Positions 1,478 to 36,994 of a DNA stretch of 37,147 nucleotides are shown here, piece after piece (position 1 is the first letter of the stretch; every line of letters starts with the position of its first letter). The DNA is from Caulobacteraceae bacterium (lineage in GTDB: Bacteria; Pseudomonadota; Alphaproteobacteria; Caulobacterales; Caulobacteraceae). Position numbers and translations under genes: made by a program. The notes beneath the pieces are model-generated. The model saw only the letters and a list, made by a program, of their open reading frames with translations. It did not search any database and had not been told where the DNA came from. Location of the stretch: NCBI GenBank assembly GCA_025352085.1, contig JANXUA010000020.1, positions 1-37,147 on the forward strand, in the 5' to 3' direction.

Positions 1478-2443
1478 ATGCAGCTGAGCCGAGACGATCT
1501 CAAACGGGCATACCGCGGCATGTTCACCATCCGCGTGTTCGAGGAACGGGTGAACAAGGAATTCGCGCTGGGGAACATCCCCGGGTTCGCCCACGTCTAT
1601 CTCGGCCAGGAAGCCTCGGGCGTGGGCGTGTGCTTTGATCTGACCGACGAGGATTACATCGGCTCGACCCACCGCGGCCATGGCCACTGCATCGCCAAGG
1701 GCTGCGACGTGCGGGGCATGATGCTGGAGATCATGGGCAAGGAAGGCGGCCTTTGCGGCGGCAAGGGCGGCTCCATGCACATCGCCGACATGTCCAAGGG
1801 CATGCTCGGCGCCAACGCCATTGTCGGCGGATCGCCACCCATCGCCGTAGGCGCGGCCCTGACGCAGAAGCTCAGGAAAACCGGCAAGGTCGCGGTGGCC
1901 TTTTCCGGCGACGGCGCCTCCAACCAAGGCACCACCTTCGAAGCGCTCAACATGGCGGTGGTGCTGGGCGCGCCGGCCATCTTCGCCTTCGAGAACAACG
2001 GCTATGGCGAGCACACCGCCGCCAGCTACGCCGTGGGTGCGCCGTCCATCGCCGAACGGGCGAAGAGCTTCGGCATGCCCGCCGAGGTGGTGGACGGCTC
2101 GGACTTCTTCGCCGTACGCGAGGCGATGGGCCGCGCCCTTGAGCGGGGCCGGGCCGGCGAGGGACCCTACGCTTTGGAGATCGTCTGCTCGCGCTTCCTG
2201 GGGCATTTCGTCGGAGACCCGCAAGCCTACCGCCTGCCCGAGGAACTGGCCAAGGCCAGGGCCAACGACCCCATCCCGCGCTTCCGCGCCCGGGTCACGG
2301 AGGCACAACTGCTGGATGACGCCGACCTGGACGCCATTGAGCGGGATATTCATGCGGAGGTCGAGGCCGCGGTTCAGCTGGCCGTAGCCGCACCCCGTCC
2401 AAACATCAACACCCTCGAAACCGACGTCTACCTTAGGTATTGA
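1478..2443 (+). CDS. Thiamine-diphosphate-dependent dehydrogenase E1 alpha subunit, acetoin-dehydrogenase type (AcoA-like), copy 1
   Basis: 321 residues, the usual length for AcoA/PDH-alpha-type subunits. The ThDP-binding motif is visible as GDG at 144-146 followed by the ENN at 172-174. The HRGHGHCIAKG segment (65-75) and GKGGSMHIAD (95-104) are typical of acetoin-cleaving E1 alpha rather than pyruvate E1. It should decarboxylate or cleave a 2-oxoacid, diketone or ketol and pass the acyl group to a lipoyl E2. I chose ATG 1478 over the in-frame TTG 1475 because an AGAGGA ribosome site precedes it and copy 2 (33585) starts MQLSR at the same place. It is followed one base later by E1 beta. No E2 is adjacent; candidates are at 27633 and 35597. 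Confidence 0.93.
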   Translation: MQLSRDDLKRAYRGMFTIRVFEERVNKEFALGNIPGFAHVYLGQEASGVGVCFDLTDEDYIGSTHRGHGHCIAKGCDVRGMMLEIMGKEGGLCGGKGGSMHIADMSKGMLGANAIVGGSPPIAVGAALTQKLRKTGKVAVAFSGDGASNQGTTFEALNMAVVLGAPAIFAFENNGYGEHTAASYAVGAPSIAERAKSFGMPAEVVDGSDFFAVREAMGRALERGRAGEGPYALEIVCSRFLGHFVGDPQAYRLPEELAKARANDPIPRFRARVTEAQLLDDADLDAIERDIHAEVEAAVQLAVAAPRPNINTLETDVYLRY

Positions 2444-2444
2444 A

Positions 2445-3455
2445 ATGTCAAAGAAAACCTACAGTCAGGCGATCAACGAGGCCCTGCGCCAGGAGATGCG
2501 CCGGGATCCTAATGTTATCATCATCGGCGAGGACGTCGCCGGCGGCCACGGCGCCTCGGGCGAGACCGGTGGCGTGGGCGGGGTCTTCGGCCTGACCAAA
2601 AGTCTTTACACCGAGTTCGGGCCCGAGCGGGTGCTGGATACGCCGATCAGCGAAAGCGCCATCATCGGGGCGGCCTCAGGGGCGGCGGTGACCGGCCTGC
2701 GGCCGGTGGCCGAGATCATGTTCGTCGACTTCGTCGGCGTTTGCTTCGACCAGATCTACAATCAGGCCGCCAAGTTCCGCTACATGTTTGGCGGCAAGGC
2801 CAAAACGCCCATGGTGATCCGCACGGCCATCGGCGCCGGTCTTCGCGCCGGCGCCCAGCACAGCCAGACCCTGCATCCCCTGTTCACGATGGTGCCGGGG
2901 CTGAAGGTGGTTATGCCGGCCAATCCCTATGACGCCAAGGGCCTGCTGATCAGCGCAATCCGCGACGACGATCCGGTGATCTTCATGGAATCCAAACTGC
3001 TCTATGGCATGGAGGGCGAAGTGCCCGACGAGGCCTACCGTGTCCCCTTCGGCGAGGCCAATATCGCCCGCGAGGGCAAGGACCTTACCTTCGTCGCTTT
3101 CGGCGCCATGGTCCAGCGCGCCCTGGCTGTGGCCCAGACCCTGGCGGGGGAAGGGATCAGCGTGGAGGTGATCGATCCACGCACCACCTCTCCATTGGAC
3201 GAGGAGGCGATCCTCGACAGCGTCGCCAAGACCGGCCGCCTGGTGGTGATCGACGAGAGCCCGCCGCGCTGCTCCTTGGCGGGCGATATCTCTTCGCTGG
3301 TGGCGGAAAAAGGTTTCCGCTCGCTCAAGGCGCCGATCGGAAAGGTGACCTGCCCGCACACGCCCGTGCCTTTCGCTCCCAACCTCGAGGATGAGTTCAT
3401 GCCCAATCCCCGCCGTATCGAGGAGGCCGCTCGGGCGGTCCTCGCCTACCGCTGA
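2445..3455 (+). CDS. Thiamine-diphosphate-dependent dehydrogenase E1 beta subunit (AcoB-like), copy 1
   Basis: 336 residues, the family length. The N-terminal transketolase-type pyrimidine-binding domain shows GED (28-30, with the likely cofactor-activating Glu), DTPISE (65-70) and AQHSQ (His139). The C-terminal domain shows VIDPRTTSPLD and DESPPRCS. It forms the alpha2beta2 E1 with the gene just upstream; one base separates the TGA from this ATG, so translation is probably coupled. The 3' neighbour is a Rieske oxygenase 32 bases on, which ties this E1 to an oxygenase pathway rather than to central metabolism. It is a paralogue of 34572-35582 with the same motif numbering. Confidence 0.93.
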   Translation: MSKKTYSQAINEALRQEMRRDPNVIIIGEDVAGGHGASGETGGVGGVFGLTKSLYTEFGPERVLDTPISESAIIGAASGAAVTGLRPVAEIMFVDFVGVCFDQIYNQAAKFRYMFGGKAKTPMVIRTAIGAGLRAGAQHSQTLHPLFTMVPGLKVVMPANPYDAKGLLISAIRDDDPVIFMESKLLYGMEGEVPDEAYRVPFGEANIAREGKDLTFVAFGAMVQRALAVAQTLAGEGISVEVIDPRTTSPLDEEAILDSVAKTGRLVVIDESPPRCSLAGDISSLVAEKGFRSLKAPIGKVTCPHTPVPFAPNLEDEFMPNPRRIEEAARAVLAYR

Positions 3456-3487: not shown

Positions 3488-4735
3488 ATGACTCTGAGCT
3501 TCGCCGAACGCCTGCATGAGACCCGACTGGGGCTGGGCCGCCGGATCGTGGAACACATCCGCAGCGGCACCAGCGATCTGGCGCCCGCGGCCATGCGCAA
3601 CGACGTCTCTGTCTATACCGATCCGGTCCGCCATGCCGCCGAGCGCCAGACGCTGTTTCGCGAAACGCCGGTGGTCGCGTGCTTCTCCAACGACGTCAGG
3701 GAGCCGGGCCAGTTTCGCACCTTCGACGAGACCGGCGTACCCATCGTCGTGGTCCGCGGTCGGGACGGCGAGGTTCGGGCTTTTCTCAATGTCTGCCAGC
3801 ATCGTGGCGCGCGCCTTGTGCGCGAGGCAGAAGGCAAGGCCAATCTGTTCACCTGCTGGTTCCACGGCTGGTCCTACGCCAACGACGGTCATCTGGTCGC
3901 GGCGCCGGAGGCCGATCGGTTCTGCGACGCCGACGGCGTCAGCGCGATCGGATCAAGCGACCATTTGATTTCGGTTCCGGTGGCCGAGCGCCACGGCCTG
4001 GTCTTTGTGCAAGCCACGCCGGGCTCGACCATGGATATTGACGCCCACCTCGGCTCGTTCGGAGCCCAGTTGGAACTGCTTGAGCTGGACAAGGCCGAAA
4101 AGGTGAAGGACGGCGTCCTGCCGGTGGACTCCAACTGGAAATTCGCCCTGGACACCTACGGCGAGGGCTATCATTTCGCCGCGCTCCACAAACAGACCTT
4201 GGCGCCGTACTTCCGAAGCGACATTACCGTCTACGACCCGTTCGGCCCGCACCATCGCGTGCTGTTCGTGGCTCGCGAGATGGAGACCTGGGCGAACCGG
4301 GCCGAGGAGGACTGGGGCGTCGACGACGCTCTCGGCGGCATTCACTACATCTTTCCCAACACAATCCTGTTCGCGGGGGCGGTGTCGCCGGGCAAGCGCT
4401 ATTACACCACCTTCCGGCATTTCCCCGGCGAAACGCCCGGCGAGACCGTCACCTACAAAACCATCTATGCGCCGGGCGGCGTGAAATCGGACGCCCACCG
4501 CAAGGAGGTCGAAGACGCCTGGGACGCAACCGCCCATGTGGTGCGCACCGAAGACTATGTCGTTTCGGCCGAAGGCTATCGCAACCTCCAGCACCTGCCG
4601 CCGGGGAGCACGGTCATTTACGGACGACAGGAAATCAGCCTGCAGAACGTGCACAAATCTCTCGCCGAGGCCATCGGCATGCCCCTGCCGCCGGTAACGG
4701 CGACCAATCCGCAAATGCGCGAGGCGGCGGAATGA
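3488..4735 (+). CDS. Rieske [2Fe-2S] non-heme iron oxygenase, alpha subunit
   Basis: 415 residues. The Rieske cluster ligands are visible as C103-x-H105 and C123-x2-H126 (CQHRG...CWFHGWSY). The mononuclear iron site is DTYGEGYHFAALH with His229 and His234. An AGGAGG ribosome site at 3476 supports ATG 3488. Family role: NAD(P)H-driven hydroxylation or demethylation of an aromatic or alicyclic substrate, with electrons from a ferredoxin and reductase, neither of which is in the window. Its N-terminal layout resembles the minus-strand Rieske gene at 11883-13073 more than those at 8830 and 22805. The stop overlaps the next start (ATGA), so the VOC protein is translationally coupled. Substrate unknown. 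Confidence 0.93.
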   Translation: MTLSFAERLHETRLGLGRRIVEHIRSGTSDLAPAAMRNDVSVYTDPVRHAAERQTLFRETPVVACFSNDVREPGQFRTFDETGVPIVVVRGRDGEVRAFLNVCQHRGARLVREAEGKANLFTCWFHGWSYANDGHLVAAPEADRFCDADGVSAIGSSDHLISVPVAERHGLVFVQATPGSTMDIDAHLGSFGAQLELLELDKAEKVKDGVLPVDSNWKFALDTYGEGYHFAALHKQTLAPYFRSDITVYDPFGPHHRVLFVAREMETWANRAEEDWGVDDALGGIHYIFPNTILFAGAVSPGKRYYTTFRHFPGETPGETVTYKTIYAPGGVKSDAHRKEVEDAWDATAHVVRTEDYVVSAEGYRNLQHLPPGSTVIYGRQEISLQNVHKSLAEAIGMPLPPVTATNPQMREAAE

Positions 4736-5271
4736 GCGGGCGCGGCGGTATAGCCGATCTGGGCGAGATCATGCAGCTGGCCTATGTGCCGGCCGATTTC
4801 GACGCGGCTCTGCGGCACTGGACGCAGGGGGTGGGTGCCGGACCATTCTTTGCCCTGGACCATGTGCAACTCGAGGACGTTCGATATTGCGGCGCGCCGT
4901 CCACGATCGATTTCTCCATGGCCCTCGGCTACTGGGGCGACATGCAGATCGAGTTGATCCGCCAGCACAACGACGCGCCCTCTATCTACAAGGCCTGGCG
5001 GGACGCCGGCCATGAGGGCCTGCAACACGTGTGCATACTGGTCGACGACATCGCCCATGCCCGCGCGGTCTGCGCGGCGGCCGGCGCAACCGTCGCCCAG
5101 GAAGGCCGCGTGGCCGGCGGCGGCGAGGTGATCTATGTCGATACCGGCGGCGGCCCGGGCACGATGGTGGAAATCCTGCAACCTGGACCTGGCACGCGAG
5201 GTTTCTTCACCATGATGCGCGACGCGGCCCGCGGGTGGGACGGCTCCGAACCGCTGCGCCGTCTCGGCTAA
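4732..5271 (+). CDS. VOC/glyoxalase-superfamily protein, copy 1
   Basis: 179 residues with two vicinal-oxygen-chelate half-domains. Candidate metal ligands follow the methylmalonyl-CoA-epimerase-like pattern: the MQLAYV strand, IELIRQ, LQHVCILV and MVEILQ. The segment HNDAPSIYK recurs almost unchanged (HNETPSIYR) in the VOC protein at 14868-15395, so the two are paralogues. Members of this superfamily include epimerases, isomerases, lyases and extradiol dioxygenases; the reaction cannot be assigned here. The ATG overlaps the Rieske stop by four bases, so it probably acts on the oxygenase product or a nearby intermediate. Confidence 0.85.
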   Translation: MSGRGGIADLGEIMQLAYVPADFDAALRHWTQGVGAGPFFALDHVQLEDVRYCGAPSTIDFSMALGYWGDMQIELIRQHNDAPSIYKAWRDAGHEGLQHVCILVDDIAHARAVCAAAGATVAQEGRVAGGGEVIYVDTGGGPGTMVEILQPGPGTRGFFTMMRDAARGWDGSEPLRRLG

Positions 5272-5304: not shown

Positions 5305-6306
5305 ATGACACAGACCAATCGTCAATGGCTTATCAACGGCCGGCCCAACGGCCGCAGCCTCATCGACGATGATTTCAAACTGGTCGAGACGCCCGTCGGC
5401 CGGCCCGGCGAAGGCGAGGTGCTGGTGAAGACCCTATACCTGGCCTTCGACCCCGCGCAGAAGGGCTGGATGGAGAATATCGGCGGCTACGTCGCGCCCA
5501 CCGAGATCGGCGAGATCATGCGCGGCGGAGGGCTGGGCGAGGTGGTGGCGTCCAACGCTCCGAACTTCGCGCCGGGGGACAAGGTCTCCGGCATGCTGCG
5601 CTGGCAGGACTACGCCGTCCTGCCTGGCAAGGAGTTGCTGAAGCTGGACGACGACGACCTGTTGACGGCCAATCTGGGGGTTCTGGGCACTACGGGCCTG
5701 ACGGCCTTCTTCGGTTTGAACAAGATCGGCAAGCCTTTTCCGGGCGACACCTTGATGGTGACGGGCGCCGCGGGCGCCACGGGCTCGGTGGTCGGCCAAT
5801 TGGGCAAACTCGCCGGCTGCCGCGTGGTGGGCGTGGCCGGCGGTCCTGCCAAATGCGCGTGGCTGATCGACGAACTCGGCTTCGACGCGGCCATCGATTA
5901 CAAGGCCGGGGATATCCGCGACCAGGCCCGCAAGGCGGCGCCTGACGGCATCGACGTCTTGTGGGATAACGTCGGCGGGCCCGCGTTTAACACCCTCCTG
6001 GCGCAACTGGCGATGCATGCGCGGGTCGTGGTGTGCGGCGGCATTTCGCGCTACGAACTGGGCAAGATGCCGGCGGGCCCGGAGAATTATTTCAACCTGA
6101 TTTTCAAGCGCGCTTCCATGACGGGCTTCATCCTGACCGACTTCCAGGCAGAGTTTCCCTGGGCGCGGAGCCGGTTGGTGGACTGGATTCGCGCGGGCCA
6201 GCTTCGCTACAAGGAAGACATTCAGCACGGTCTGGAGAACGCGCCCACGACCTTGCGACGGCTGTTCCAGGGCGAGAATTTTGGCAAACAACTTCTCAAG
6301 CTCTGA
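5305..6306 (+). CDS. NADP-dependent MDR-superfamily oxidoreductase (zinc-free, prostaglandin-reductase/CurA-like)
   Basis: 333 residues. The N-terminal GroES-like domain (about 1-120) lacks the catalytic zinc cysteines. A Rossmann domain follows with GAAGATGSVVGQ near 153-164 and the family segment VLGTTGLTAFFGL before it. LWDNVGGPAFN and the C-terminal FQGENFGKQLLKL are typical of the leukotriene B4 dehydrogenase / CurA / YncB group, which reduces C=C bonds of alpha,beta-unsaturated ketones with NADPH. It sits 33 bases after the VOC gene in the same operon. A related but frameshifted gene is at 28906-30017. Confidence 0.9.
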   Translation: MTQTNRQWLINGRPNGRSLIDDDFKLVETPVGRPGEGEVLVKTLYLAFDPAQKGWMENIGGYVAPTEIGEIMRGGGLGEVVASNAPNFAPGDKVSGMLRWQDYAVLPGKELLKLDDDDLLTANLGVLGTTGLTAFFGLNKIGKPFPGDTLMVTGAAGATGSVVGQLGKLAGCRVVGVAGGPAKCAWLIDELGFDAAIDYKAGDIRDQARKAAPDGIDVLWDNVGGPAFNTLLAQLAMHARVVVCGGISRYELGKMPAGPENYFNLIFKRASMTGFILTDFQAEFPWARSRLVDWIRAGQLRYKEDIQHGLENAPTTLRRLFQGENFGKQLLKL

Positions 6307-6314
6307 GGCGCGCC

Positions 6315-7160
6315 GTGCCCGCGATCCGCTACGGCGAACCGCTCAATGTTCTGGTGGCCGCCAAGGGCCATCCCTATTTGCGCGATCCGTTCATGGCGAT
6401 CTTCGACACCTTGCCGGGCATCGCCTGCACCCTGGTTGAACAGCCAGCAGTCCAGCGGCTGATGAACCCGGAGGGCATGAAGGGTTTCGACGCCTTGGTG
6501 CTGTACGACATGCCGGGCCTCGACTTCGCCGCGACCCATCCGCCGGGTTATGTGAAGCCTGATCCGGCGTTCAAGGCCGGCCTTCTCGCCCTGCTCGACG
6601 AGGGCAAGGGCGTCGTCGCCCTGCATCACGCCATCGCCGGCTGGCCTGGCTGGCCGGAATACGCCGAGCTGCTGGGCGGTCGGTTCCTTTACCGGGCCGG
6701 TCCGCTGCGCGGAACCGATCGACCGGATTCCGGTTATCGCCACGATGTGGATCACGAGGTGACAGTGCTCAATCGCGCCCATCCGGTCGCGGCGGGCCTG
6801 CCTGAGCGATTCCGCCTGACCGATGAGCTTTACCTGGGCGAAGTGTTCGAGGATATCGTCCATCCTCTGCTGGCGTCGGATGCGTCCTTCACCCACGAAC
6901 ACTTTTATTCGTCGGCCCTAGCGGTCAACGGCGCTATGTTTTCCAACAACGGCTGGAGTCATCCCGACGGATCGAACCTGGTGGGATGGGCCAAGGCGGC
7001 GCGCAGAAGTCCGCTGGTCTATCTTCAGCCGGGGGACGGACCGGCCACCTATGAGAATATGCACTATCGGCGCATGGTGGAGAACGCCATTCGCTGGGTG
7101 GTCTCGCCCGAGGCGCACGCCTGGGCGCGAGAACGGGCCATGCGGCGAAAACAAACTTAG
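6315..7160 (+). CDS. ThuA-like domain protein
   Basis: 281 residues when started at GTG 6315, eight bases after the reductase stop and with a GAGGCG site before it; longer readings of this frame run inside the upstream gene. Class-I glutamine-amidotransferase-like ThuA fold features are visible: LVAAKGHPYLRDPF near the start, FDALVLYDMPG, GKGVVALHHAIAGWPGW, the H-D-V-D-HEVTV segment, and HPVAAGLPERFRLTDELY. ThuA homologues are usually linked to sugar metabolism (e.g. 3-keto-disaccharide hydrolysis) and have no agreed general reaction. Its place inside a Rieske/E1 operon is unusual and hints at a hydrolytic role on a pathway intermediate. Function not assigned. Confidence 0.8.
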   Translation: MPAIRYGEPLNVLVAAKGHPYLRDPFMAIFDTLPGIACTLVEQPAVQRLMNPEGMKGFDALVLYDMPGLDFAATHPPGYVKPDPAFKAGLLALLDEGKGVVALHHAIAGWPGWPEYAELLGGRFLYRAGPLRGTDRPDSGYRHDVDHEVTVLNRAHPVAAGLPERFRLTDELYLGEVFEDIVHPLLASDASFTHEHFYSSALAVNGAMFSNNGWSHPDGSNLVGWAKAARRSPLVYLQPGDGPATYENMHYRRMVENAIRWVVSPEAHAWARERAMRRKQT

Positions 7161-7241
7161 ACGCTTGAACAAAACAATGATGACTTTTTTCACCGACGGC
7201 GTATGGTCCGACGGTTGCAACCAAGTTGGAGAGACGAGGGC

Positions 7242-7649
7242 ATGAGCGTCGCTGTTGCGGATGACCTTTTCGTCGAGCGAGCCGACGGCGTGCGATTGAT
7301 CGCGGGACGCCGCAAAGCCGACGGCGAAATGCGTTTTCCCATGCCCCGCGGCGCCGACGCGGCGTTGTACGATCCCGTGGAACTTGCCCCGGTTGGCAAG
7401 CTCTGGAGCTATACGGTCCAGCGTTTCCGTCCCAAGACCCCGCCCTATATCGGCGCCGATGATGAGAAGAGCTTTGTGCCCTTCGCGCTGGGCTATGTGG
7501 AATTTGCCGGCCAGGTGATCGCCGAGGGCCGCATTCTCATCGACGATCCGTCCAGCTTGAAGATCGGCCTTCCCATGAAGGTGGCGATCGAAGCCTTTCC
7601 AACCTCCACCCGGGGCGAGGTCGCGACCTACGCCTTCCGCCCCGCCTGA
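7242..7649 (+). CDS. DUF35 OB-fold protein, thiolase partner, zinc ribbon lost
   Basis: 135 residues when started at ATG 7242, preceded by GACGAGGG; the in-frame ATG at 7203 has no visible ribosome site and would add an atypical leader. The C-terminal two-thirds match the DUF35 OB-fold (GKLWSYTVQRF, PFALGYVEFAG, MKVAIEAF). DUF35 proteins usually carry an N-terminal four-cysteine zinc ribbon, but this protein has no cysteine at all. Established context: DUF35 partners bind thiolase-fold enzymes such as the Ltp2 aldolase of steroid side-chain breakdown. The thiolase gene begins 26 bases downstream, so a heteromeric complex is likely. Confidence 0.82.
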   Translation: MSVAVADDLFVERADGVRLIAGRRKADGEMRFPMPRGADAALYDPVELAPVGKLWSYTVQRFRPKTPPYIGADDEKSFVPFALGYVEFAGQVIAEGRILIDDPSSLKIGLPMKVAIEAFPTSTRGEVATYAFRPA

Positions 7650-7675: not shown

Positions 7676-8818
7676 GTGACTGACGTGCATATTATCGGCG
7701 CCGGCATTCATCCTTTCGGCCGGCATCCCGACATGACCGGCCTCGATCAGGGCGTCTATGCGGTGCGCGAAGCCCTGGACGACGCCGGAGTCGCATGGGC
7801 AGACATGCAATTCGCTTTCGGGGGATCGGCCGCCGCAGGCAGCGCCGACGCCGCCTTGCCGAGACTGGGGCTGACCGGCGTCCAGTTCATCAACATCTCC
7901 AATGGTTGCGCCACGGGCGGGTCATCCATGCTGTCGGGCTATTGGGCGATCAAGTCCGGTGAATTCGACATCGGAGTGGTGTTGGGCTTCGACAAGCACC
8001 CCCGCGGCGCCTTCAACGCCGACCCGGAGGCCTCGGGCCTGCCGCGCTGGTACGGCGAGACCGGCATGATGCTCACCACCCAGTTCTTCGCCATGAAGAT
8101 TCGCCGCTATATGGAACTTTACGGCGTCAGCGAAACGTCGCTCGGCCGGGTGGCCGTCAAGGCTTATGAAAACGGCGCACGCGCACCGCACGCCTGGCGA
8201 CGTGAACCGGTGGATATTGAAACTGTGCTCACCAGCCAGATGCTGTCCGATCCGCTGACCAAGTTCATGTTTTGCTCGCCGGCCGAGGGGGGGGTGGCCA
8301 TGGTGCTGGCCTCGGACAAGAAGATGCGCGAACTTGGGCTCACCGGGCCCAAGGTGCGCGGCGCGGCCGTGCGCACGCGGCTGCGGGGCTCGTTCGAGGT
8401 TTTCGCGCCGTCGCTTGATGTGGAACGCGGCGTGGCCCCGACCGTTCTGGCCTCCGAGGCGGCCTATGCCATGGCGGGGGTCGGACCGGGGGATATCGAC
8501 GTCGCCCAGATTCAGGACACCGAGTCCGGTGCGGAGATCATGCACATGGCGGAGAACGGTTTGTGCGCCGACGGCGAACAGGAAGCCTGGCTGGCCGATG
8601 GCGTCACTAGCCTGGGCGGCCGCTTGCCGATCAACACCGATGGCGGATGCCTCGCCTGCGGCGAACCGATCGGCGCCTCGGGCCTGCGCCAGATCTATGA
8701 AAATGTGCAGCAACTGCGTGGGCGCGCCGAAGGTCGTCAGGTTCCGGACGCAAAACTGGCCTACAGCCAGGTGTACGGCGCCCCTGGCATCTCCGCCGTC
8801 GCCATATTGGAAGCCTGA
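7676..8818 (+). CDS. Thiolase-superfamily enzyme of the lipid-transfer/SCP-x type, probable DUF35 partner
   Basis: 380 residues, GTG start with GAGGAG at 7659-7664. The thiolase nucleophile is present (Cys78 in SNGCATGG). The usual GHP loop is replaced by GEP (about 329-331, in CGEPIGASG), and the C-terminal C-x-G motif is replaced by VYGAPG. Loss of two of the three classical catalytic elements argues against ordinary thiolytic beta-ketothiolase activity. It better fits the divergent thiolase-like group that includes retro-aldolases acting with DUF35 proteins. A role in C-C cleavage or condensation of an acyl-CoA is inferred. Same operon as DUF35 (26-bp gap) and Rieske (11-bp gap). Confidence 0.85.
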   Translation: MTDVHIIGAGIHPFGRHPDMTGLDQGVYAVREALDDAGVAWADMQFAFGGSAAAGSADAALPRLGLTGVQFINISNGCATGGSSMLSGYWAIKSGEFDIGVVLGFDKHPRGAFNADPEASGLPRWYGETGMMLTTQFFAMKIRRYMELYGVSETSLGRVAVKAYENGARAPHAWRREPVDIETVLTSQMLSDPLTKFMFCSPAEGGVAMVLASDKKMRELGLTGPKVRGAAVRTRLRGSFEVFAPSLDVERGVAPTVLASEAAYAMAGVGPGDIDVAQIQDTESGAEIMHMAENGLCADGEQEAWLADGVTSLGGRLPINTDGGCLACGEPIGASGLRQIYENVQQLRGRAEGRQVPDAKLAYSQVYGAPGISAVAILEA

Positions 8819-13458: not shown

Positions 13459-13466
13459 GGAGATTC

Positions 13467-28905: not shown

Positions 28906-30017
28906 ATGACCCTGGTCAATCGTGGTTGGTTCTACACCCATTTTCCCGAGCGTGACGGCGCCTTGTTGCCGGCCCGGGAGATCTTCGAGCAGCGCGACCT
29001 GGGGCCGATGCCGGCTCTGGCCGACGGCCATGTCCGTCTGAAACTTTCGCTCATCGCCGTGGCGCCCATGGCCAAGACCTATCTCGAACTCCCGGCAACG
29101 ACACGGGCGCGGATGAGCTTGGTCTGCATCGGACCCGCCTTGGGTCACCCTCGCCCTGCGAGTACATCGCCGACGTGGTGCAAAGCGCCAGCCCCGCCTA
29201 TGCCGTCGGCGACAAGGTTTGGGGCATGGGCCCTCTGTTTCAATACCGCGACCTGCGCGCCGACGGCGCCGACCAGCCCGGCGGAATGCCGCCCATGAAG
29301 GCCATGCCGGGGGTTCCGGCGGAGACGCTGCTGTCCGTGGTGACGGCGTCCGCCGGCATCACCGCCTATTGCGCCGTGGAGCATCACCCCTGCGGTCAGG
29401 TGGAGGCGCCGTTCGCCGACAAGACCATACTGGTGACCTCCGCCGCCGGGGCGGTCGGGCTCATCGCCGGCCAGCTCTACAAGCTCAAGGGCTGCAAGGT
29501 GATCGGCGTCACCAGCAGTCGCGAAAAGGCCGACCGGCTGGAGCGTTTCGGCGGCTACGACCATGTGATCGCCTACAGGACCGAGAACCTCGACGAGCGG
29601 CTGAACGCGCTGGCCCCCGAAGGCCTGGATGTCTTCATCGACAATGTCGGCGCTGAACAGCTCGACGCGGGCGCGCGCCACATGAAGATCGGCGGGCGCA
29701 TCCTCAGCGTCGGCGCCATCGGCGAGATGGACGCCATGGTCAGCGGCAAGCTGCACGGCTTCAGGGAATACCTGCGGGTCCCTGCCAAGGAACTGACCTT
29801 CGGCGGTTTCCTCATGTACAACCACTTCAGACGGATTCCGGGGGCCGCCGCCGCCCTCATCGGCCTGCTCACCGAGGGCAAGCTGAAGAGCGAGGAGACC
29901 GTTCTGCACGGCGGCTTCGACGACTGGGCGGCGTGCGTCGACAAGCTGTACGACTCCCAGACCTTCGGACGCATGATCCTGGCGCTCGACGGCAATGGCC
30001 TCGCGATCGCAAGCTAG
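28906..30017 (+). pseudogene. NADP-dependent MDR oxidoreductase with a -1 frameshift
   Basis: The frame from ATG 28906 (GGAGGG site) encodes a normal MDR N-terminus (MTLVNRGWFYTHFPERDGAL ... ALADGHVRLKLSLIAVAPMAKTYLELP). At about 29108-29113 the reading must change to the frame that continues DELGLH...CEYIADVVQ and carries the rest (AAGAVGLIAGQ nucleotide site, DVFIDNVGAE, end at 30017). One missing G in GCGCGGATGAG explains it. The joined protein would be about 370 residues. Either the gene is recently broken or the base is a sequencing or assembly error; the downstream part shows no further decay. Related to 5305-6306. Confidence 0.85.
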
Positions 30018-30028
30018 AGGACGCCCTC

Positions 30029-30760
30029 ATGATCGAACGTCAGATCGAAATCGCCACCAAGGACGGACCCTGCACCACCTTCGTGGCGCACCCCGACAGG
30101 GGCGGACCCCATCCGGCCATCGTCATCCTGATGGACGCGCCCGCCATTCGCGAGGAATTGCGCGACATGGCCCGGCGGTACGCCAGCAGCGGCTATTACG
30201 TTATGCTGCCCAATCTCTATCACCGCGCCGGGGTGTTGGAGCTCGGTCCGGGCGTGCTCTCGGGCGATACAACCGCGCGCGAAAAGATGATCGCGCTGAT
30301 GAACGGCCTGGGCATCACCTCGGCCATGGACGATCTTGACGGCATGCTGGCCTTCGCCGACGCCGACCCCGCCGCGCGGGCGGACGCCGTGGGCGTGGTC
30401 GGCTATTGCATGAGCGGTCGTTTCGCCCTCTGCGCCGGCGCCCATCGGCCGGAGCGGGTCAAGGCGGTCGCCTCGTTCTACGGCGTGCGCCTGCTCACCG
30501 ACAAACCCAACAGCCCCCACCTGATCGCCAAGGGCGCGCCGGCCGAATTCTACATCGCCTGCGCCGAAACCGATCACTGGGTTCCCGCGGAGATGATCGG
30601 TCAGCTGCGGACCGAACTGGCCGGAGCCCATGGCGAGGTGGAGCTCTACGCCGGGGTGGAACACGGCTTCGCCTTCCCCCAACGCGCCGTCTACGACAAG
30701 ACGGCGGCCGAGCAGCATTGGGAGCGGGTGTTGTCCCTGTTCCGGCGTAACCTCGGCTGA
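30029..30760 (+). CDS. Dienelactone hydrolase family protein
   Basis: 243 residues from ATG 30029, preceded by AGAGGA and 11 bases after the reductase. The catalytic triad is visible: Cys127 in GYCMSG, Asp182 in ETDHW and His212 in VEHGFAFP. The N-terminal IVILMDAPAIREELRDMARR is typical of the DLH group. Established role: hydrolysis of lactones or other esters in ring-cleavage pathways, cytoplasmic. Here it may open a lactone produced after ring oxygenation. It is convergent with the OYE gene, 12 bases away. Confidence 0.92.
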   Translation: MIERQIEIATKDGPCTTFVAHPDRGGPHPAIVILMDAPAIREELRDMARRYASSGYYVMLPNLYHRAGVLELGPGVLSGDTTAREKMIALMNGLGITSAMDDLDGMLAFADADPAARADAVGVVGYCMSGRFALCAGAHRPERVKAVASFYGVRLLTDKPNSPHLIAKGAPAEFYIACAETDHWVPAEMIGQLRTELAGAHGEVELYAGVEHGFAFPQRAVYDKTAAEQHWERVLSLFRRNLG

Positions 30761-30772: not shown

Positions 30773-31873
30773 TCAGGCGGCGGCGGCCGGCTCTTGCTTG
30801 ACCACGAAGTTGTCCCAGGTCGCCATGTACTTCAGGAAGCGGCGGCCCAGACCCTCGGTCGCCAGATAGTCGGCGGTGACCGGCAGGGGAACAGGCTCGA
30901 AGTCGAGGTCGGCGCGGGCGCGCAGAGGGAAATCGTGGTGCAATATGGCGGCGCGGCCGATCAGCGCGAAGTCCGCGCCGTCCGCCAACATGCGCTCGGC
31001 GATGCGCGGGGTCGCGATCTTGCCCGCCACGCCGAAACGCGCTCGCCCCCGCGGCACGTCGGCGAACCAGCCGATCAGGCTGCGTTGCCGATACGCGGCG
31101 TCTTCCGGCGATTTGGCCGCGTCCCACATGGACATGTCCAGGAAGTCGATCTTGCCGCCGGTCATCACCTCCTGGGCCAGTTCCCGCATTTCCGGCAGCA
31201 GCAGGCCGTACCGCTCCGGCGAGAGCCGCACACCAAGCTGGAAATCGGGCCGGCAGACCGACCGTATGCCGTCGATGATCTCGAAGACGATCCGCGCGCG
31301 ATTCTCCAGGCTCCCGCCGTAGCGATCATCCCGGCGGTTATCGGTGGTCGAGAGGAATTGCGTCAGGATATAGCCGTGGGCCCCGTGCAGTTCGACACCG
31401 TCGAAGCCGGCCTGTTCGGCCCGGCGGGCGCCGGCGATGAAATCGGCGACGAGCTGCCCGACCTCGTCGGTGGATAGCCCCCGGGCGCCTGACGAAGCGT
31501 CGTCGGAGGGGCCCACGGGCTGCGGGACGCAGCGCTTGGGCGAACGGTAGCCGGCATGGTGCAACTGCAGGCTCGCAACCCGGCCCTGCGCCTTGATCAG
31601 CTTGGCTATCTCAGCGAAGCCCTCGACATGATCGTCCGTGGTGATACCGAATTGGCCCTGGCCGGCCTTGCCATGGGGCTGCACATAGCAGGCCGAAGTC
31701 ATCACGAAGCCGAAGCCGCCGCGGGCCCGCATGCCGAGCCAGCGCAGCTCGTCGTCCGTCACCTTCCCGTCGGGCGTGGCCTGGTCGCTGGTCATGGGCG
31801 CCAGCATCAGGCGGTTTTCCATGGCCGGGCCGCGCGCGAAGGTCAGCGGCTCAAAAAGTAGAGAAGAGGTCAC
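30773..31873 (-). CDS. NADH:flavin oxidoreductase, Old Yellow Enzyme family
   Basis: 366 residues, GTG start. An FMN-binding TIM barrel: NRLMLAPMTS near 20-29, LQLHHAG near 102-108, catalytic His163/His166 pair in ELHGAHGYILTQFLS, NRRDDRYGGSLENRAR, and late FALIGRAAILHHDFP. The family reduces activated C=C bonds, usually of enones, with NAD(P)H; some members act on steroid or terpenoid enones. It lies in a minus-strand pair with the MFS gene upstream, 159 bases apart. The ribosome site is weak. Confidence 0.92.
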   Translation of the reverse strand: MTSSLLFEPLTFARGPAMENRLMLAPMTSDQATPDGKVTDDELRWLGMRARGGFGFVMTSACYVQPHGKAGQGQFGITTDDHVEGFAEIAKLIKAQGRVASLQLHHAGYRSPKRCVPQPVGPSDDASSGARGLSTDEVGQLVADFIAGARRAEQAGFDGVELHGAHGYILTQFLSTTDNRRDDRYGGSLENRARIVFEIIDGIRSVCRPDFQLGVRLSPERYGLLLPEMRELAQEVMTGGKIDFLDMSMWDAAKSPEDAAYRQRSLIGWFADVPRGRARFGVAGKIATPRIAERMLADGADFALIGRAAILHHDFPLRARADLDFEPVPLPVTADYLATEGLGRRFLKYMATWDNFVVKQEPAAAA

Positions 31874-32032: not shown

Positions 32033-33433
32033 CTATGAAGCCACCGCTTCGACCACCGGCGTCCGGGGCGCCGGACGCAGAGCCAACATGCCGAAGACCA
32101 GCGCCAGGAGGGGTGCGGCGGCCATCACGAGATAGGCGTTCCTGAAGGCGGCCAAGCCGGCGAGAGGTCCGGCGAGGCCCAGCACCGACAGGGCCACCGT
32201 GGCGCCCAGAGGTACGCCCAGGGCCTGGAAGGTGAACATGACCGCCGAGGCGGCGCCTTGTTGCGAGGCGGGAATGTCGGCCGTGGCCTCGGCCAGCAGG
32301 GTGATGAAGGCGGTGGTGGCGCCCAGCGCCGTTACCACCGAGCCCAAGGCGATGGCGAGCCAGTAGTTCGGCTGATCGCTGAGCACGGCCAGCATGGTGA
32401 TGCCGAGCACGAACAGGCCCGAAGCACCGAAGATGATCACCCGGTTGGGCAGTCGCGCCATCAGGGGCGCCAGGGCCTGCCCCGACACTATGACCGCCGC
32501 CGCATAGGGCATCATGCCCAGGCCCGACTGCATGGCCGACATCTTGAGACCGGTCTGCATATAGACGCTGAGCAGCACGAACACCCCGCCGACGGCGACG
32601 AGCAGGAGAGGCATGATCACGTTGGCCGCCGCATAGTTGCGCCGGCCGAACATGGACAGGGGAGCCAGCGGCTCGCGCGCCCGACCTTCGGCCACGAAGA
32701 AAAGGGCGAAAACCACGACCCCCGCCACCGTCATGGCCAGGGGGCGCAACGCGGTCCACCCCTCCTTGCCCATGGCCGACACCCCCAGCAGCAGAAGGAT
32801 CATGGCCGTGCCGATGAGGACGGCGCCGAGCCAGTCGATATGGCTGTCCAGACGCGCCGGCGTCGCGGGTTTTGGCACGCACCGCAGGGTCAGGAGAATA
32901 GCGAGGATCGCCAGGGGCGGATTGAGGCCGAATACCCATCTCCACCCCAGCTGGGTGGTGACGGCCCCGCCGACCAGCAGCCCGATGATCAGTGACACCC
33001 CTTGCATGAGACCAAACACGCCCATGGCCATTCGGCGAGGAGCGCCTTCGGGCACGAGGACGTTGATCAAGGAGAAGTTGGCCGGCCCCAAGATGGCGCC
33101 GCCCACGCCCTGAAGCGCGCGCGCGGCGATCAGCATGGGCAGGCCCGGCGCGACCGCGGCCGCCAACGATCCGGCGACGAACAGGGTCAGCCCCACCAGC
33201 AGACACAGTCTCTGTCCAAAGATGTCGGCGGCGCGGCCGGCCAGGATCAGCAGGCACCCGCCCGCCAGGGCGCCGGCCGAAATGACCCAGGACAGGGCGG
33301 CGGGCGGTATGTGCAGATCGCGACCGAGCGAGGGAAGAGCGACAGTGACGATGGAAAAATCGATCGTCACGATAAGCTGCGTCAGCCCCACGAGAAAAAT
33401 CACGAGCCGATAGCGCGGGCTAACCCCTTCCAT
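32033..33433 (-). CDS. MFS transporter, DHA2 (14-TM) type
   Basis: 466 residues, strongly hydrophobic with about 14 predicted membrane helices. The N-terminus has LTQLIVTIDFSIVTVALPSL and the following WVISAGALAGGCLLILAGRAADIFGQR loop, a variant of the DHA2 motif A. ARALQGVGGAILGPA and the motif-C-like GLLVGGAVTTQLGWRWVF also fit. DHA2 members are proton-coupled drug or metabolite exporters. GGAG lies upstream of the ATG. Divergent from the second E1 operon, so it may export a toxic intermediate or substrate of that pathway. Confidence 0.92.
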   Translation of the reverse strand: MEGVSPRYRLVIFLVGLTQLIVTIDFSIVTVALPSLGRDLHIPPAALSWVISAGALAGGCLLILAGRAADIFGQRLCLLVGLTLFVAGSLAAAVAPGLPMLIAARALQGVGGAILGPANFSLINVLVPEGAPRRMAMGVFGLMQGVSLIIGLLVGGAVTTQLGWRWVFGLNPPLAILAILLTLRCVPKPATPARLDSHIDWLGAVLIGTAMILLLLGVSAMGKEGWTALRPLAMTVAGVVVFALFFVAEGRAREPLAPLSMFGRRNYAAANVIMPLLLVAVGGVFVLLSVYMQTGLKMSAMQSGLGMMPYAAAVIVSGQALAPLMARLPNRVIIFGASGLFVLGITMLAVLSDQPNYWLAIALGSVVTALGATTAFITLLAEATADIPASQQGAASAVMFTFQALGVPLGATVALSVLGLAGPLAGLAAFRNAYLVMAAAPLLALVFGMLALRPAPRTPVVEAVAS

Positions 33434-33584
33434 TACGTTCTTCTCCGCTTGTTTTCGACAAACCTGCTTGTTTTTTGGAGCTGACGCAACCTATTTCATT
33501 GCAGCGGCCACCGATGTTCGGCTAGGCAAGGGCCGGGAAGCTGGTTTAAGAACGCGATATGTTTTTAGGGAGAGGGACGAGCCC
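33434..33584. promoter_or_regulatory. Divergent MFS/E1 control region with TTGT-N5-ACAA site
   Basis: This 151-bp gap holds both promoters. TTGTTTTCGACAA (33449-33461) is an inverted repeat with four-base arms, followed by CTTGTTTTTTGG (33467-33478). The tract resembles the AACAA/TTGTT palindrome at 27496. AGAGGGA before 33585 is the E1 alpha ribosome site. No clear -35/-10 pair was found. Confidence 0.4.
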
Positions 33585-34556
33585 ATGCAGCTAAGCCGCG
33601 AGGCGCTTCTGCGCGCCTACCGCCAGATGAAGGTGATCCGCGAGTTCGAGGAGCGGCTTCACGTCGAGATCATGACCGGCGAGATTGCCGGCTTCACCCA
33701 TTTGTATTGCGGTCAGGAGGCGGTCGCGGTCGGCGTGTGCGAGCACCTCGACCACGCCGACATGATCGTCTCCACCCACCGCGGTCACGGCCACTGCATC
33801 GCCAAAGGGTGCGATGTGAAGGGCATGATGAAAGAGATCTGGGGCAGCCGCGAGGGGATCTGCAAGGGCAAGGGCGGCTCGATGCACATCGCCGACATCG
33901 ATGTCGGCATGCTGGGCGCCAACGGGATTGTCGGGGCCGGGTCGCCGATCGGGGTCGGCGCGGCGCTGTCGGCCAAGATCGACGGCAACGGCAAGGTGGC
34001 GATCACCTTCTCCGGCGACGGAGCGTGCAATCAGGGCACCACCTTCGAGGCCATGAACATGGCCGTGGTGACCAAAGCGCCGTGCATTTTTCTGTACGAA
34101 AACAACAAGTATTCCGAGCACACTGGCGTCTCGTACTCCGTGGGCACCAACAAGGACATCGCCAGTCGAGCCGAGGCCTTCGGCATGAAGATTTGGCGTG
34201 GGGACGGCACGGACTTCTTTTCCGTACATGACACTATGCGCGATGTTCTCGAATACGTGCGGGCGGGGAATGGTCCGGCGGCGGTCGAATTCGACACCGA
34301 ACGGTTCTTCGGCCATTTCGAAGGCGACCCGCAGCGCTATCGCGGCAAGGGCGAACTCGACCACATTCGCGAGAACCGAGACGCGCTGAAGATATTCCGC
34401 GCCCGCGTCACGGAGGCCGACCTGCTCTCCGGCGCCGATCTCGACGCTATCGACGCCGAGGTCATGACCCTGATCGACGAAGCAGTCGCCGAAGCGCGCC
34501 TGGCCGAACGGCCCACCGCCGCCGACGTCCTCACCGACGTCTATATCTCCTATTAG
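33585..34556 (+). CDS. Thiamine-diphosphate-dependent dehydrogenase E1 alpha subunit, acetoin-dehydrogenase type, copy 2
   Basis: 323 residues from ATG 33585 with GAGGGA upstream; a longer in-frame reading runs through the control region. ThDP motif GDG at 144-146 with ENN at 172-174; HRGHGHCIAKG at 65-75. At residues 61-120 it matches copy 1 (1478) at 44 of 60 positions, so the two are old paralogues, not a recent duplication. Here the E1 genes are followed by a conventional E2, giving an almost complete dehydrogenase complex operon. Substrate probably a diketone, ketol or 2-oxoacid. Confidence 0.93.
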   Translation: MQLSREALLRAYRQMKVIREFEERLHVEIMTGEIAGFTHLYCGQEAVAVGVCEHLDHADMIVSTHRGHGHCIAKGCDVKGMMKEIWGSREGICKGKGGSMHIADIDVGMLGANGIVGAGSPIGVGAALSAKIDGNGKVAITFSGDGACNQGTTFEAMNMAVVTKAPCIFLYENNKYSEHTGVSYSVGTNKDIASRAEAFGMKIWRGDGTDFFSVHDTMRDVLEYVRAGNGPAAVEFDTERFFGHFEGDPQRYRGKGELDHIRENRDALKIFRARVTEADLLSGADLDAIDAEVMTLIDEAVAEARLAERPTAADVLTDVYISY

Positions 34557-34571: not shown

Positions 34572-35582
34572 ATGGCGCAAATGATGTATCGCGACGCCGT
34601 TCTGCAGACCCTGTTTGCGGAGATGGAGCGCGACGAGAACGTGGTGGTTCTGGGCGAGGATATCGTCGGGGGCATGGGGACCGCCGGCGGACCCGAAGCC
34701 ATCGGCGGAATCTGGAGTACGTCAGTCGGCCTGTTCGACAAGTTCGGCAAAGACCGTGTGATCGACACGCCGATCTCCGAGAGCGCCATCGTCGGCGCGG
34801 CGGCGGGTCTGGCCCTGGCCGGCAAGCGGCCGGTGGCCGAACTGATGTTCGCCGACTTCATCGGCGTCTCGCTCGACCAAATCTGGAACCAGATCGGCAA
34901 GTTTCGCTACATGTTCGGCGGCAAGACCACCTGCCCGGCGGTGATCCGCATGGCCTATGGCGCCGGCTTCAACGCCGCCGCCCAGCACTCCCAATCGGTC
35001 TACGCCCTGCTCACCGCCATGCCCGGGATCAAGGTCGTCACACCCTCCACCCCGGCGGACGTGAAGGGCCTTCTGACCCAGGCGATCCGCGACGACGACC
35101 CGGTGATCTTCATGGAGCACAAGGCGCTCTATGGGACGATGGGCGAAGTGCCCGACGGCGACTACGCCATCCCGTTCGGCCACGCCCGCCTGTGCCGCGC
35201 CGGCCAGGACGTCACCATCGTCACCCTGGGTCTGATGGTCGGCTTTTGCGAAGCGGTGGCTGACAAGCTGGCCACCGAAGGCATAGGCTGCGACGTCATC
35301 GATCTGCGCACCACCAGCCCGATGGACGAAGAAGCCATTCTGGATTCGGTGGAAATCACCGGCCGCCTGGTGGTGGTCGACGAAAGTCCGCCACGCTGCT
35401 CGCTGGCGTCCGACATCGCCGGCCTGGTCACCACCAAGGCTTTCGCCAGCTTGAAGGCCCCGCCCGCGCTGGTCACCACGCCGCACACGCCGATCCCGTT
35501 CGCGCGCGAGCTCGAGAGCAACTATCTGCCCTCGCCGGACAAGATCGAAGCCGCCATCCGCCAAACCCTGGCCTGGCGCTGA
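34572..35582 (+). CDS. Thiamine-diphosphate-dependent dehydrogenase E1 beta subunit, copy 2
   Basis: 336 residues, the same length and motif positions as copy 1: GED at 28-30, DTPISE at 65-70, AQHSQ with His139, then VIDLRTTSPMDEEA and DESPPRCS in the C-terminal domain. Fifteen bases follow E1 alpha and fourteen precede E2, so the three genes form one operon. It builds the E1 tetramer with the upstream subunit. Confidence 0.93.
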   Translation: MAQMMYRDAVLQTLFAEMERDENVVVLGEDIVGGMGTAGGPEAIGGIWSTSVGLFDKFGKDRVIDTPISESAIVGAAAGLALAGKRPVAELMFADFIGVSLDQIWNQIGKFRYMFGGKTTCPAVIRMAYGAGFNAAAQHSQSVYALLTAMPGIKVVTPSTPADVKGLLTQAIRDDDPVIFMEHKALYGTMGEVPDGDYAIPFGHARLCRAGQDVTIVTLGLMVGFCEAVADKLATEGIGCDVIDLRTTSPMDEEAILDSVEITGRLVVVDESPPRCSLASDIAGLVTTKAFASLKAPPALVTTPHTPIPFARELESNYLPSPDKIEAAIRQTLAWR

Positions 35583-35596
35583 GGGAGGCCAGGATC

Positions 35597-36994
35597 ATGG
35601 CCAATATCCGCGCCTTCACCATGCCCAAGTGGGGCATTGAAATGACCGAGGGGACCGTCGCCGAATGGATGCTCAAGGAGGGTGACGCCTTCGTCCGGGG
35701 CGACACGCTCTGCCTGATCGAAACCGACAAGATCACTAACGACGTAGACGCCGAGTTCGACAGCGTACTGCGCAAGGTGGTGGCGCCGATGGGCGAGGCC
35801 CTGCCGGTCGGAACCCTGCTGGCGGTGTTCGCCGACGCCGACGCCGACGACGCGGCGATCGACGCCTTCGTCGGCGCTTTCAAGGCCCCCAACACCGCCG
35901 TGGCCGCCGGCGCCGGCAAGACGCCCGCCCCCGCCCCGGCCGCACCCCCGCGGATCATCGAGACCAATCGGCCGATCAGCCCGGAAGCCCTGAGACTCGC
36001 GCAGGAACTGGATATCGACTTGGCGCACGTCGAAGGGACGGGGCGCAACGGCCGCATCACCTATCAGGATGTGCAACAGGCCAGCCGCCCCGAGGCGCGG
36101 CCCGTTCTGTTGGGGCCGCTGGACCTCGATGACGCTCCGGAAAAACACTATGGCTCGCCGCTCGCCCGGCGCCTGGCGGCCATGCACGGGATCGATCTTG
36201 GGACTGTTAAAGGAACGGGAGCGCGCGGGCGCATCCGCAAGGCCGACGTCCTGGCCCTCGTCCCGCAACCAGCCGCGGCCAGGGTCGGCGCACCCTTCAC
36301 GCCCGGCGAGAACCGACCGCGCATCGCGCCGATGGACAAGATCCGCAAGGTCGTCGCCCGGCGGCTCACCGAAGCGGCGACGACCATCCCGCACATCTAT
36401 CTGCGCGCCAGCGTAAAGGTCGACGATCTACTGGCCATGCGCAAGACAGCCAATCTGGTGCTAGGGGTCAAGGCGTCGATCAACGACTATCTGGTCCGCG
36501 CCGCCGCCGTCGCCCTCGCGCGCCACCCCGACATCAACATCCAGGTGCATGGCGAGGCGATCCACCACTTCCCCCATGCCGACATCGCCATCGCGGTCGC
36601 CACCGAACGGGGTCTCGTCACGCCGATCGTGCGCGGCGCCGACCAGATGCGGATCGACCAGATCGCCACAGCGACCTCGGCGCTGATCGCCAAGGCGCAG
36701 ACGGGCAAGCTTGCCTACGCCGACGTTGACGGGGGCACCTTCTCGATCTCCAACCTCGGCATGTTCGGCCTGGACGCCTTCGACGCCATCATCAATCCCC
36801 CGCAAGGCGCGATCCTCGCGGTGGGCGCCGTCATGCGCGCGCTGGCCGAAGAGAATGACGGCGAAATCCGCTTCGAAAGTCGCCTAGCGCTGACCCTGTC
36901 ATGCGACCACCGCGCCATCGACGGCGCGGCTGGGGCCAGGTTCATGGCGACGTTGAAGGGCCTGATCGAGGCGCCGGAAGGACTGTTTGAATGA
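35597..36994 (+). CDS. Dihydrolipoamide acyltransferase (E2) of a 2-oxoacid/acetoin-type dehydrogenase complex
   Basis: 465 residues. An N-terminal lipoyl domain has Lys45 in ETDKITN. An Ala/Pro-rich linker follows, then what look like two peripheral-subunit-binding domains in tandem (ISPEALRLAQELDIDLAHVE with GTGRNGRIT at about 126-155; SPLARRLAAMHGIDL with GTGARGRIR at about 190-220). The catalytic acyltransferase domain ends with the HxxxDG motif (His438, Asp442). Most bacterial E2 proteins have one subunit-binding domain, so the second is notable, though double-domain forms occur in acetoin-type E2 annotations. No E3 gene is adjacent. Confidence 0.93.
   Translation: MANIRAFTMPKWGIEMTEGTVAEWMLKEGDAFVRGDTLCLIETDKITNDVDAEFDSVLRKVVAPMGEALPVGTLLAVFADADADDAAIDAFVGAFKAPNTAVAAGAGKTPAPAPAAPPRIIETNRPISPEALRLAQELDIDLAHVEGTGRNGRITYQDVQQASRPEARPVLLGPLDLDDAPEKHYGSPLARRLAAMHGIDLGTVKGTGARGRIRKADVLALVPQPAAARVGAPFTPGENRPRIAPMDKIRKVVARRLTEAATTIPHIYLRASVKVDDLLAMRKTANLVLGVKASINDYLVRAAAVALARHPDINIQVHGEAIHHFPHADIAIAVATERGLVTPIVRGADQMRIDQIATATSALIAKAQTGKLAYADVDGGTFSISNLGMFGLDAFDAIINPPQGAILAVGAVMRALAEENDGEIRFESRLALTLSCDHRAIDGAAGARFMATLKGLIEAPEGLFE

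Follow-up and report, generated by a model that had tools for sequence, protein, structure and literature searches.

What bond do enzymes of acetoin dehydrogenase type break when their genes lie among Rieske oxygenases? The question is raised by a window of 37,147 bases (the whole stretch of DNA analyzed), which is one complete contig, JANXUA010000020.1 (C155), of the 3.0 Mb, 187-contig, Caulobacteraceae-like assembly GCA_025352085.1. The region of interest spans nearly the whole contig, so the island is truncated on either side. It contains two E1 alpha/beta pairs, an AcoC-type E2, a conventional E2, four intact Rieske oxygenases, short-chain dehydrogenases/reductases (SDRs) and enone reductases, together with a DUF35/thiolase pair, TonB receptors and a TetR gene among ABM/SnoaL/SDR genes. 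A first-pass annotation of the window had listed two E1 pairs and both E2 types among Rieske oxygenases, SDRs and hydrolases, and profile matches bear this gene list out. We put at about one in two the probability that these enzymes form complexes of the acetoin dehydrogenase family that cleave a ketol or diketone other than acetoin.

The E1 and E2 genes and their families

The genes are listed here under two predicted complexes, I and II, whose E1 alphas fall in two subclades, clade I and clade II.

1475-2443, plus strand: E1 alpha1 of complex I (AcoA-type, clade I; PF00676, 266 bits)
2445-3455, plus strand: E1 beta1 of complex I (PF02779/PF02780; NF006667, 344.7 bits)
about 27633-28754, plus strand: AcoC-type E2 of complex I, lipoyl plus alpha/beta-hydrolase (NF011457, 394 bits, cut-off 307)
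33585-34556, plus strand: E1 alpha2 of complex II (AcoA-type, clade II; PF00676, 259 bits), inside the open reading frame 33468-34556 and possibly starting at 33468
34572-35582, plus strand: E1 beta2 of complex II (PF02779/PF02780)
35597-36994, plus strand: conventional E2 of complex II (lipoyl PF00364, E3-binding PF02817, 2-oxoacid_dh PF00198)

The E1 family was determined from an E1 alpha tree of 99 rows, in which the two window proteins were joined by 91 sequences taken from relatives and from annotated plasmid loci and by six references of pyruvate dehydrogenase (PDH) type. The relatives were the best 80 of 361, the nearest named ones being Caulobacteraceae and Phenylobacterium metagenome assemblies, and 14 annotated plasmid stretches brought the loci for extraction to 94. 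Four loci without an E1 alpha of at least 280 amino acids were dropped (L091 and the island loci L099, L126 and L134), and a fused 665-amino-acid E1 (L070_14641) was excluded from the tree and the counts. Both window E1 alphas lie inside the AcoA superclade, and the branch to five of the six PDH references measures 3.5 changes per column. The remaining reference, L032, is a long stray row placed with the Aco sequences and did not enter the comparison of diagnostic columns. E1 alpha1 falls in clade I, a subclade of 28 rows (support 100/100), and E1 alpha2 in clade II, which has 20 rows (100/99). Outside both lie the six acetoin-reference operons, those with AcoX/AcoR or E3: L131, L136 and L140 encode a sigma-54 regulator, a NAD-kinase-like AcoX and AcoC; L133 and L135 encode an E2, an E3, acetoin reductase and butanediol dehydrogenase; and L130 encodes an E2 and an E3.

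In the columns that distinguish Aco-type from PDH-type sequences, both window E1 alphas were Aco-type at 23/23 positions (the PDH reference L004, being a fragment, covers all but the last five of them). Examples are STHRGHGHC in Aco versus TGYR-HGHM in PDH sequences, and GHF-GDP versus GHSMSDP. The E1 alphas, at 320.9 and 312.2 bits, also missed the 393.85-bit cut-off of the PDH E1 alpha model TIGR03182; for the E1 beta model NF006667 (cut-off 321 bits), E1 beta1 scored above the cut-off and E1 beta2 below it, at 315.3 bits. The first-pass annotation had taken the E1s for acetoin dehydrogenase rather than PDH and proposed an E1 alpha phylogeny as a check. The diagnostic columns and the tree placement support that view: both proteins are AcoA-type, in two subclades apart from the E1s of acetoin operons. 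In the E1 beta alignment, column 94 is Met or Ile in 8/8 reference rows, Val in 25/27 clade-I rows and Ala in 20/20 clade-II rows, and Ala also stands there in a Thermus 2-oxoacid E1 beta. This column possibly hints at a wider pocket.

The E2 partners differ between the subclades. Within 11 kb of the E1, a conventional E2 was found at 18/19 clade-II and 0/27 clade-I loci, and AcoC at 0/19 and 12/27, respectively. The window AcoC lies 24 kb away from E1 alpha1. AcoC (at least 54% identity) was present in all 13 examined genomes holding E1 alpha1. Six family genomes in this search had been chosen for having E1 alpha1, so the 16 genomes of the genus, the window's own included, provide the fairer test: AcoC occurred in 7/7 with E1 alpha1 versus 1/9 without (p = 0.0014). 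The exception, G115, is an 83%-complete assembly in which orthologues of RieA, the thiolase and E1 alpha2 are present, and G046, a genome without E1 alpha1, has an AcoC relative at 41% identity. In a tree of AcoC proteins (pieces with fewer than 330 aligned residues excluded), those of clade-I loci and E1 alpha1 genomes form one clade of 22/22 rows with 100/100 support, where the L151 row comes from G115 and L062 and L149 are identical. The window's genome has only one AcoC above the cut-off. The co-occurrence of the E1 pairs and AcoC in the window is not chance. The two E1 pairs and the two E2 types noted earlier are real, and the E2 partner counts and the AcoC tree sort them into two separate, complete complexes instead of a single mixture, E1 alpha1/beta1 with AcoC and E1 alpha2/beta2 with the conventional E2.

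AcoC keeps its lipoyl Lys and Ser-Asp-His triad in 35/35 rows, and HxxxDG is present in the translation of the complex II E2. NF011457, the model passed by AcoC, is named 'acetoin dehydrogenase ... acetyltransferase'. Across the genome, PF00676 has six matches; the four outside the window comprise two PDH-type proteins in the tree and two others outside it, one in a frame of 2-oxoglutarate dehydrogenase size (1029 amino acids) and one weak (27.6 bits). References for AcoX, AcoR, E3 and butanediol dehydrogenase gave no tblastn match in the window at E 1e-3, and no E3 match was found on the contig, in agreement with the absence of acoX, acoR and E3 reported in the first pass. Two E3 genes above the cut-off lie elsewhere in the genome, one next to the PDH-type E1 on C75 and the other next to a 2-oxoglutarate dehydrogenase-sized E1 on C142, so with a shared E3 each complex can function.

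Recurrence of the oxygenase neighborhood

The association with oxygenases recurs among the relatives and is significant. A Rieske gene lies within 11 kb of the E1 at 18/27 clade-I and 14/19 clade-II loci versus 5/45 other AcoA-type loci (p = 2.6e-6 and 1.7e-6), and two of these five (L087 and L141) are placed immediately outside clade II in the tree. Within the same distance, and in the same order, the counts were 19/27, 15/19 and 5/45 for ThuA, 7/27, 15/19 and 2/45 for DUF35/thiolase, and 8/27, 16/19 and 8/45 for acyl-CoA dehydrogenase. A VOC protein was found near the E1 at 18/27, 7/19 and 3/45 loci. The rows are related, so the p values overstate independence; the set of 45 is of mixed and mostly putative function, with L104 and L123 labeled acetoin solely for a nearby E3 gene. 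Moreover, the references of the neighbor search came mostly from island loci, which favors matches there. The comparison was therefore restricted to loci with 6 kb on both sides that were not the source of a reference protein, and the association, though weaker, stayed significant for Rieske genes (14/19 and 10/13 versus 3/18; p = 8e-4 and 1.2e-3) as well as ThuA (13/19 and 11/13 versus 3/18), whereas DUF35/thiolase was enriched for clade II only.

On plasmid pNL2 of Novosphingobium aromaticivorans, the order is DUF35, thiolase, acyl-CoA dehydrogenase, E1 alpha, E1 beta, E2 and VOC; Croceicoccus and Novosphingobium ES2-1 share this order, and Sphingobium TomTYG65 has the same without VOC. In Sphingobium RAC03 and Niveispirillum (whose E1 is outside the tree), an SDR and a Rieske gene immediately precede the E1 alpha/beta/E2 genes, genes for acyl-CoA dehydrogenase and MaoC lie close by, and Terrarubrum has the same parts. 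The order in RAC03 and Niveispirillum fits a sequence of oxygenation, dehydrogenation, cleavage by thiamine diphosphate (ThDP) and beta-oxidation.

Two lineages of AcoA-type complexes occur in oxygenase islands, a pattern more general than a single window could reveal. Proteins that are annotated as acetoin or pyruvate dehydrogenase thus appear to fall into two groups found repeatedly next to oxygenase genes, in Caulobacterales, Sphingomonadales, Rhodobacterales and a few of the Gammaproteobacteria, and this recurring pairing suggests a little-known way of cutting C-C bonds. A literature search, with most subscription journals and preprints outside its coverage, returned no description of an association between acetoin dehydrogenase and Rieske enzymes. 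The one paper holding both 'acetoin dehydrogenase' and 'Rieske' uses the terms in passages on unrelated genes (PMC8079746), and in the main texts of papers on progesterone and bile acids (PMC12239570, PMC12882949, PMC8399759) 'acetoin' and 'thiamine' occur 0 times.

Proposed reaction and competing explanations

In the reaction we propose, Rieske (and P450) oxygenation and SDR oxidation would produce a ketone adjacent to a hydroxyl or to another ketone. The ThDP of E1 would attack the ketone and break the neighboring C-C bond of the alpha-hydroxyketone or alpha-diketone (retro-benzoin cleavage), leaving one side as a ketone or aldehyde while the acyl group is passed to the lipoyl arm. E2 would then form the acyl-CoA, with E3 drawn from elsewhere in the genome, and the product could be processed by the epimerase-like VOC protein, acyl-CoA dehydrogenase and the DUF35/thiolase pair. 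We infer the reaction, the order of its steps and its catabolic role from the sequences. If the donor pocket is unchanged, the short acyl piece would be released as acetyl- or propionyl-CoA while the skeleton keeps the ketone, amounting to side-chain removal; a wider pocket could put the large half, or both ring ends, on CoA. If ketols or diketones of natural products or pollutants are cleaved in this way, C-C cleavage would be coupled to CoA activation, which could fill pathway gaps where no aldolase or extradiol enzyme has been found.

The best PDB fold match of the VOC protein is 3gm5 (E 3.6e-12), a methylmalonyl-CoA epimerase fold, and Q15, E74, H99 and E147, which we take to be metal ligands, are invariant in 28/28 rows; the protein may epimerize a ketol or an acyl-CoA. 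The DUF35 protein adjoins a lipid-transfer thiolase-like protein, as in the ChsH2-DUF35/Ltp2 aldolase of steroid side-chain degradation. Sal2/Ltp2 are described in a passage of PMC8399759 as lacking the thiolase Cys, whereas the island protein keeps this nucleophile in 22/25 aligned rows (Cys78 in the window protein), which makes thiolysis likelier than aldol cleavage of the Ltp2 type.

Comparison with known systems shows both shared parts and differences. Complex I shares an AcoA/AcoB-type E1 and AcoC with the AcoXABC-type acetoin dehydrogenases of the Azospirillum, Mycetohabitans and Caballeronia plasmid loci (L131, L136 and L140), but AcoX and AcoR are absent, the E1 has its own subclade, AcoC is 42-46% identical, and the setting is one of Rieske, DUF35/thiolase and TonB genes. 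Complex II resembles the E2/LpdA-type acetoin dehydrogenases of Klebsiella (L130), Rhodococcus (L133) and Acinetobacter (L135) in combining E1 alpha/beta with a conventional E2; however, no E3, butanediol dehydrogenase or recognized acetoin reductase adjoins it, its E1 alpha belongs to a separate subclade, and its E1 beta has Ala rather than Met at column 94. A further related cluster is that on pNL2 (SARO_RS18650-18680), which is surrounded by Rieske, ThuA and TonB genes and encodes an E1 alpha 82% identical to E1 alpha2; pNL2 differs in having complex II only, in the stretches 156.9-193.9 and 120-160 kb, and is annotated without a pathway.

Opening of an alicyclic ring by one or both complexes, in which a ring alpha-ketol or 1,2-diketone arising from Rieske/P450 and SDR steps would be split by ThDP and captured on lipoate, is a special case of the ketol or diketone cleavage proposed here, and one we consider unlikely. 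A ThDP enzyme for C-C cleavage of a cyclic diketone, the reaction suggested in the first-pass annotation, is known in cyclohexane-1,2-dione hydrolase, which is not known to need lipoate or CoA; the island has E1/E2 complexes instead. The Azoarcus enzyme appears in a passage of PMC12247030 as a natural cleaver of a cyclic dione and a member of the decarboxylase superfamily, a ThDP superfamily other than that of the E1s. If ring opening did occur, a single step would both open the ring and activate the product with CoA, no CoA ligase being needed, and a ring-cleavage strategy across Alpha- and Gammaproteobacteria, including complex II on megaplasmids, would be masked by the name acetoin dehydrogenase.

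Several results weigh against the proposed reaction. A Rieske gene within 11 kb is missing at 9/27 clade-I and 5/19 clade-II loci, some of which are cut short. In the restricted comparison, clade I showed no enrichment of DUF35/thiolase (4/19 versus 1/18, p = 0.34) or of acyl-CoA dehydrogenase (8/19 versus 6/18, p = 0.74). Four of these clade-I loci, of Rhodobacteraceae type (L067-L069 and L071), have VOC-AcoC-E1 alpha-E1 beta plus SDRs, with no Rieske gene in the stretch examined; the most fully scanned, L067, adds a LacI regulator, a TRAP transporter, an FAA-hydrolase and a TIM-barrel protein. The substrate of this minimal form is probably small and soluble, so clade-I chemistry need not involve rings. 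With a TRAP transporter next to it and no oxygenases, this form points to small or side-chain ketols and counts against ring opening. The loss of acetoin as substrate is itself read from the neighbors, and the island E1s are not distinctive in lacking AcoX and E3: within 11 kb, E3 was found at 0/27 and 0/19 versus 5/45 other AcoA-type loci (p = 0.15 and 0.31), and AcoX at 0/27 and 0/19 versus 3/45 (p = 0.29 and 0.55). In the profile scan of window proteins, AcoC gave no match to an E3-binding domain. Finally, Bacillus acetoin E1 is said in a passage of PMC12247030 to transfer only acetyl or propionyl. In favor of the proposed reaction, passages of the same paper state that acetoin E1 uses alpha-diketones and the tertiary ketol methylacetoin, and accepts ketones.

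The main rival, which we regard as somewhat unlikely, is that the complexes are 2-oxoacid dehydrogenases that oxidatively decarboxylate a large 2-oxo acid from ring or side-chain cleavage to give an acyl-CoA. Pfam and NCBIfam place the E1s in the general 2-oxoacid dehydrogenase E1 family, with a PDH E1 alpha y model as the best match, users of acyl-CoA follow in several clusters, and E1 beta2 shares the Ala of the Thermus 2-oxoacid enzyme at column 94. Yet both E1 alphas fall below the PDH cut-off, match the Aco pattern at every diagnostic column and branch within AcoA-type sequences, and no aldolase forming a 2-oxo acid was recognized among the scanned open reading frames, where the VOC proteins were not tested for dioxygenase activity. 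Genuine catabolism of acetoin or butane-2,3-diol that lies in the island by chance, or disposal of acetoin-like fragments of a pathway, seems to us distinctly improbable. In its favor, no named family is closer than acetoin dehydrogenase, AcoC scores above the acetoin equivalog cut-off, the TRAP transporter of the minimal clade-I locus suggests a small soluble substrate, and AcoA-type loci are commonly without AcoX and E3. Against it stand the separate subclades, the presence of two complexes in one island, and the recurrent link to ThuA, VOC and Rieske genes, plus DUF35/thiolase for complex II. In addition, AcoX, AcoR, E3 and butanediol dehydrogenase are near 0/27 and 0/19 island E1s and absent from the window (acetoin reductase, an SDR, was not distinguished from other SDRs in the neighbor search). 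We give very little weight to carboligation, in which the E1s would form tertiary alcohols or branched sugars like the alpha-KADH2 group in natural-product clusters. Related E1-type enzymes do so according to a passage of PMC12247030, and ThuA and TIM-barrel proteins are nearby in pNL2, but the E2 partners keep their lipoyl Lys and catalytic residues (AcoC in all rows, and the window E2), and acyl-CoA enzymes and TonB receptors are among the neighbors.

Other genes of the island and its relatives

The remaining genes recognized in the window are as follows.

3488-4735, plus strand: Rieske oxygenase alpha RieA, adjoining the complex I E1 (PF00355/PF00848; C-x-H/C-x2-H motif)
4732-5271, plus strand: VOC protein, methylmalonyl-CoA-epimerase-like (PF13669)
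5305-6306, plus strand: medium-chain dehydrogenase/reductase (MDR) enone reductase, curcumin-reductase-like (PF16884/PF00107; NF058644, 343 bits, under the cut-off of 440)
6360-7160, plus strand: ThuA-domain protein, start unsettled (PF06283)
7203-7649, plus strand: DUF35/OB-fold thiolase partner (PF01796)
7676-8818, plus strand: thiolase-like 'lipid-transfer protein' with nucleophile Cys (PF22691)
8830-10239, plus strand: Rieske oxygenase alpha RieB (profile matches; motif)
10279-11088 and 11108-11878, minus strand: two SDR dehydrogenases (PF13561)
11883-13073, minus strand: Rieske oxygenase alpha RieC (profile matches; motif)
17059-19605, plus strand: TonB-dependent receptor
20271-21842, minus strand: ABM, SnoaL and SDR genes
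22739-24148, plus strand: Rieske oxygenase alpha RieD (profile matches; motif)
24772-27351, minus strand: second full TonB-dependent receptor
29995-30760, plus strand: dienelactone-hydrolase family protein (PF01738)
30773-31873, minus strand: old-yellow-enzyme family reductase (PF00724)
32033-33433, minus strand: MFS transporter (PF07690)

Searched against the PDB, RieA, RieC and RieD gave generic matches, to dioxygenases and carnitine oxygenase. A decayed Rieske oxygenase gene resembling RieB, interrupted by several stops and frame breaks, lies at 15600-16900 on the minus strand. The ABM/SnoaL/SDR block is duplicated (13111-14562 and 20271-21970, about 90-96% DNA identity), and the SDR of the first copy (13.9-14.5 kb) is broken by loss of an internal stretch. 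Another MDR reductase, at 28900-30017, has an open frame starting no earlier than about 29.17 kb and lacks a complete N-terminal part in that frame, reflecting decay or an assembly error. The ThuA gene, a frequent companion of the E1s, may be a key to the substrate.

A second contig of the same assembly, C173 (L181), encodes a P450, a CoA ligase and ThuA, Rieske, old-yellow-enzyme-like and RPE65/carotenoid-oxygenase family proteins that match island genes of the relatives; 13 clade-I loci share a P450 conserved at 59-82%, to which that of C173 is 76% identical. C173 probably carries further pieces of the same island. The RPE65-family oxygenase of the Phenylobacterium island was considered as a lead to a carotenoid or stilbene substrate and set aside: apart from the 80% identical copy on C173, it matches L125 only, at 31% (L047 being the same Phenylobacterium contig).

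On pNL2, at about 144-194 kb (L127 and L132), the surroundings of complex II include several Rieske genes, a P450 and an FAD protein of the KstD family. The steroid lead suggested by the FAD protein was likewise dropped, as the protein falls under the KstD cut-offs listed and outside its own plasmid matches only two searched loci, at 27-28% identity. Sugar-related genes, one for a DUF6379 protein among them, also stand beside the pNL2 complex II. In genome G019, the stretch 8287-11400 of L164, close to an island copy, encodes proteins that by eye resemble coenzyme F420-related enzymes.

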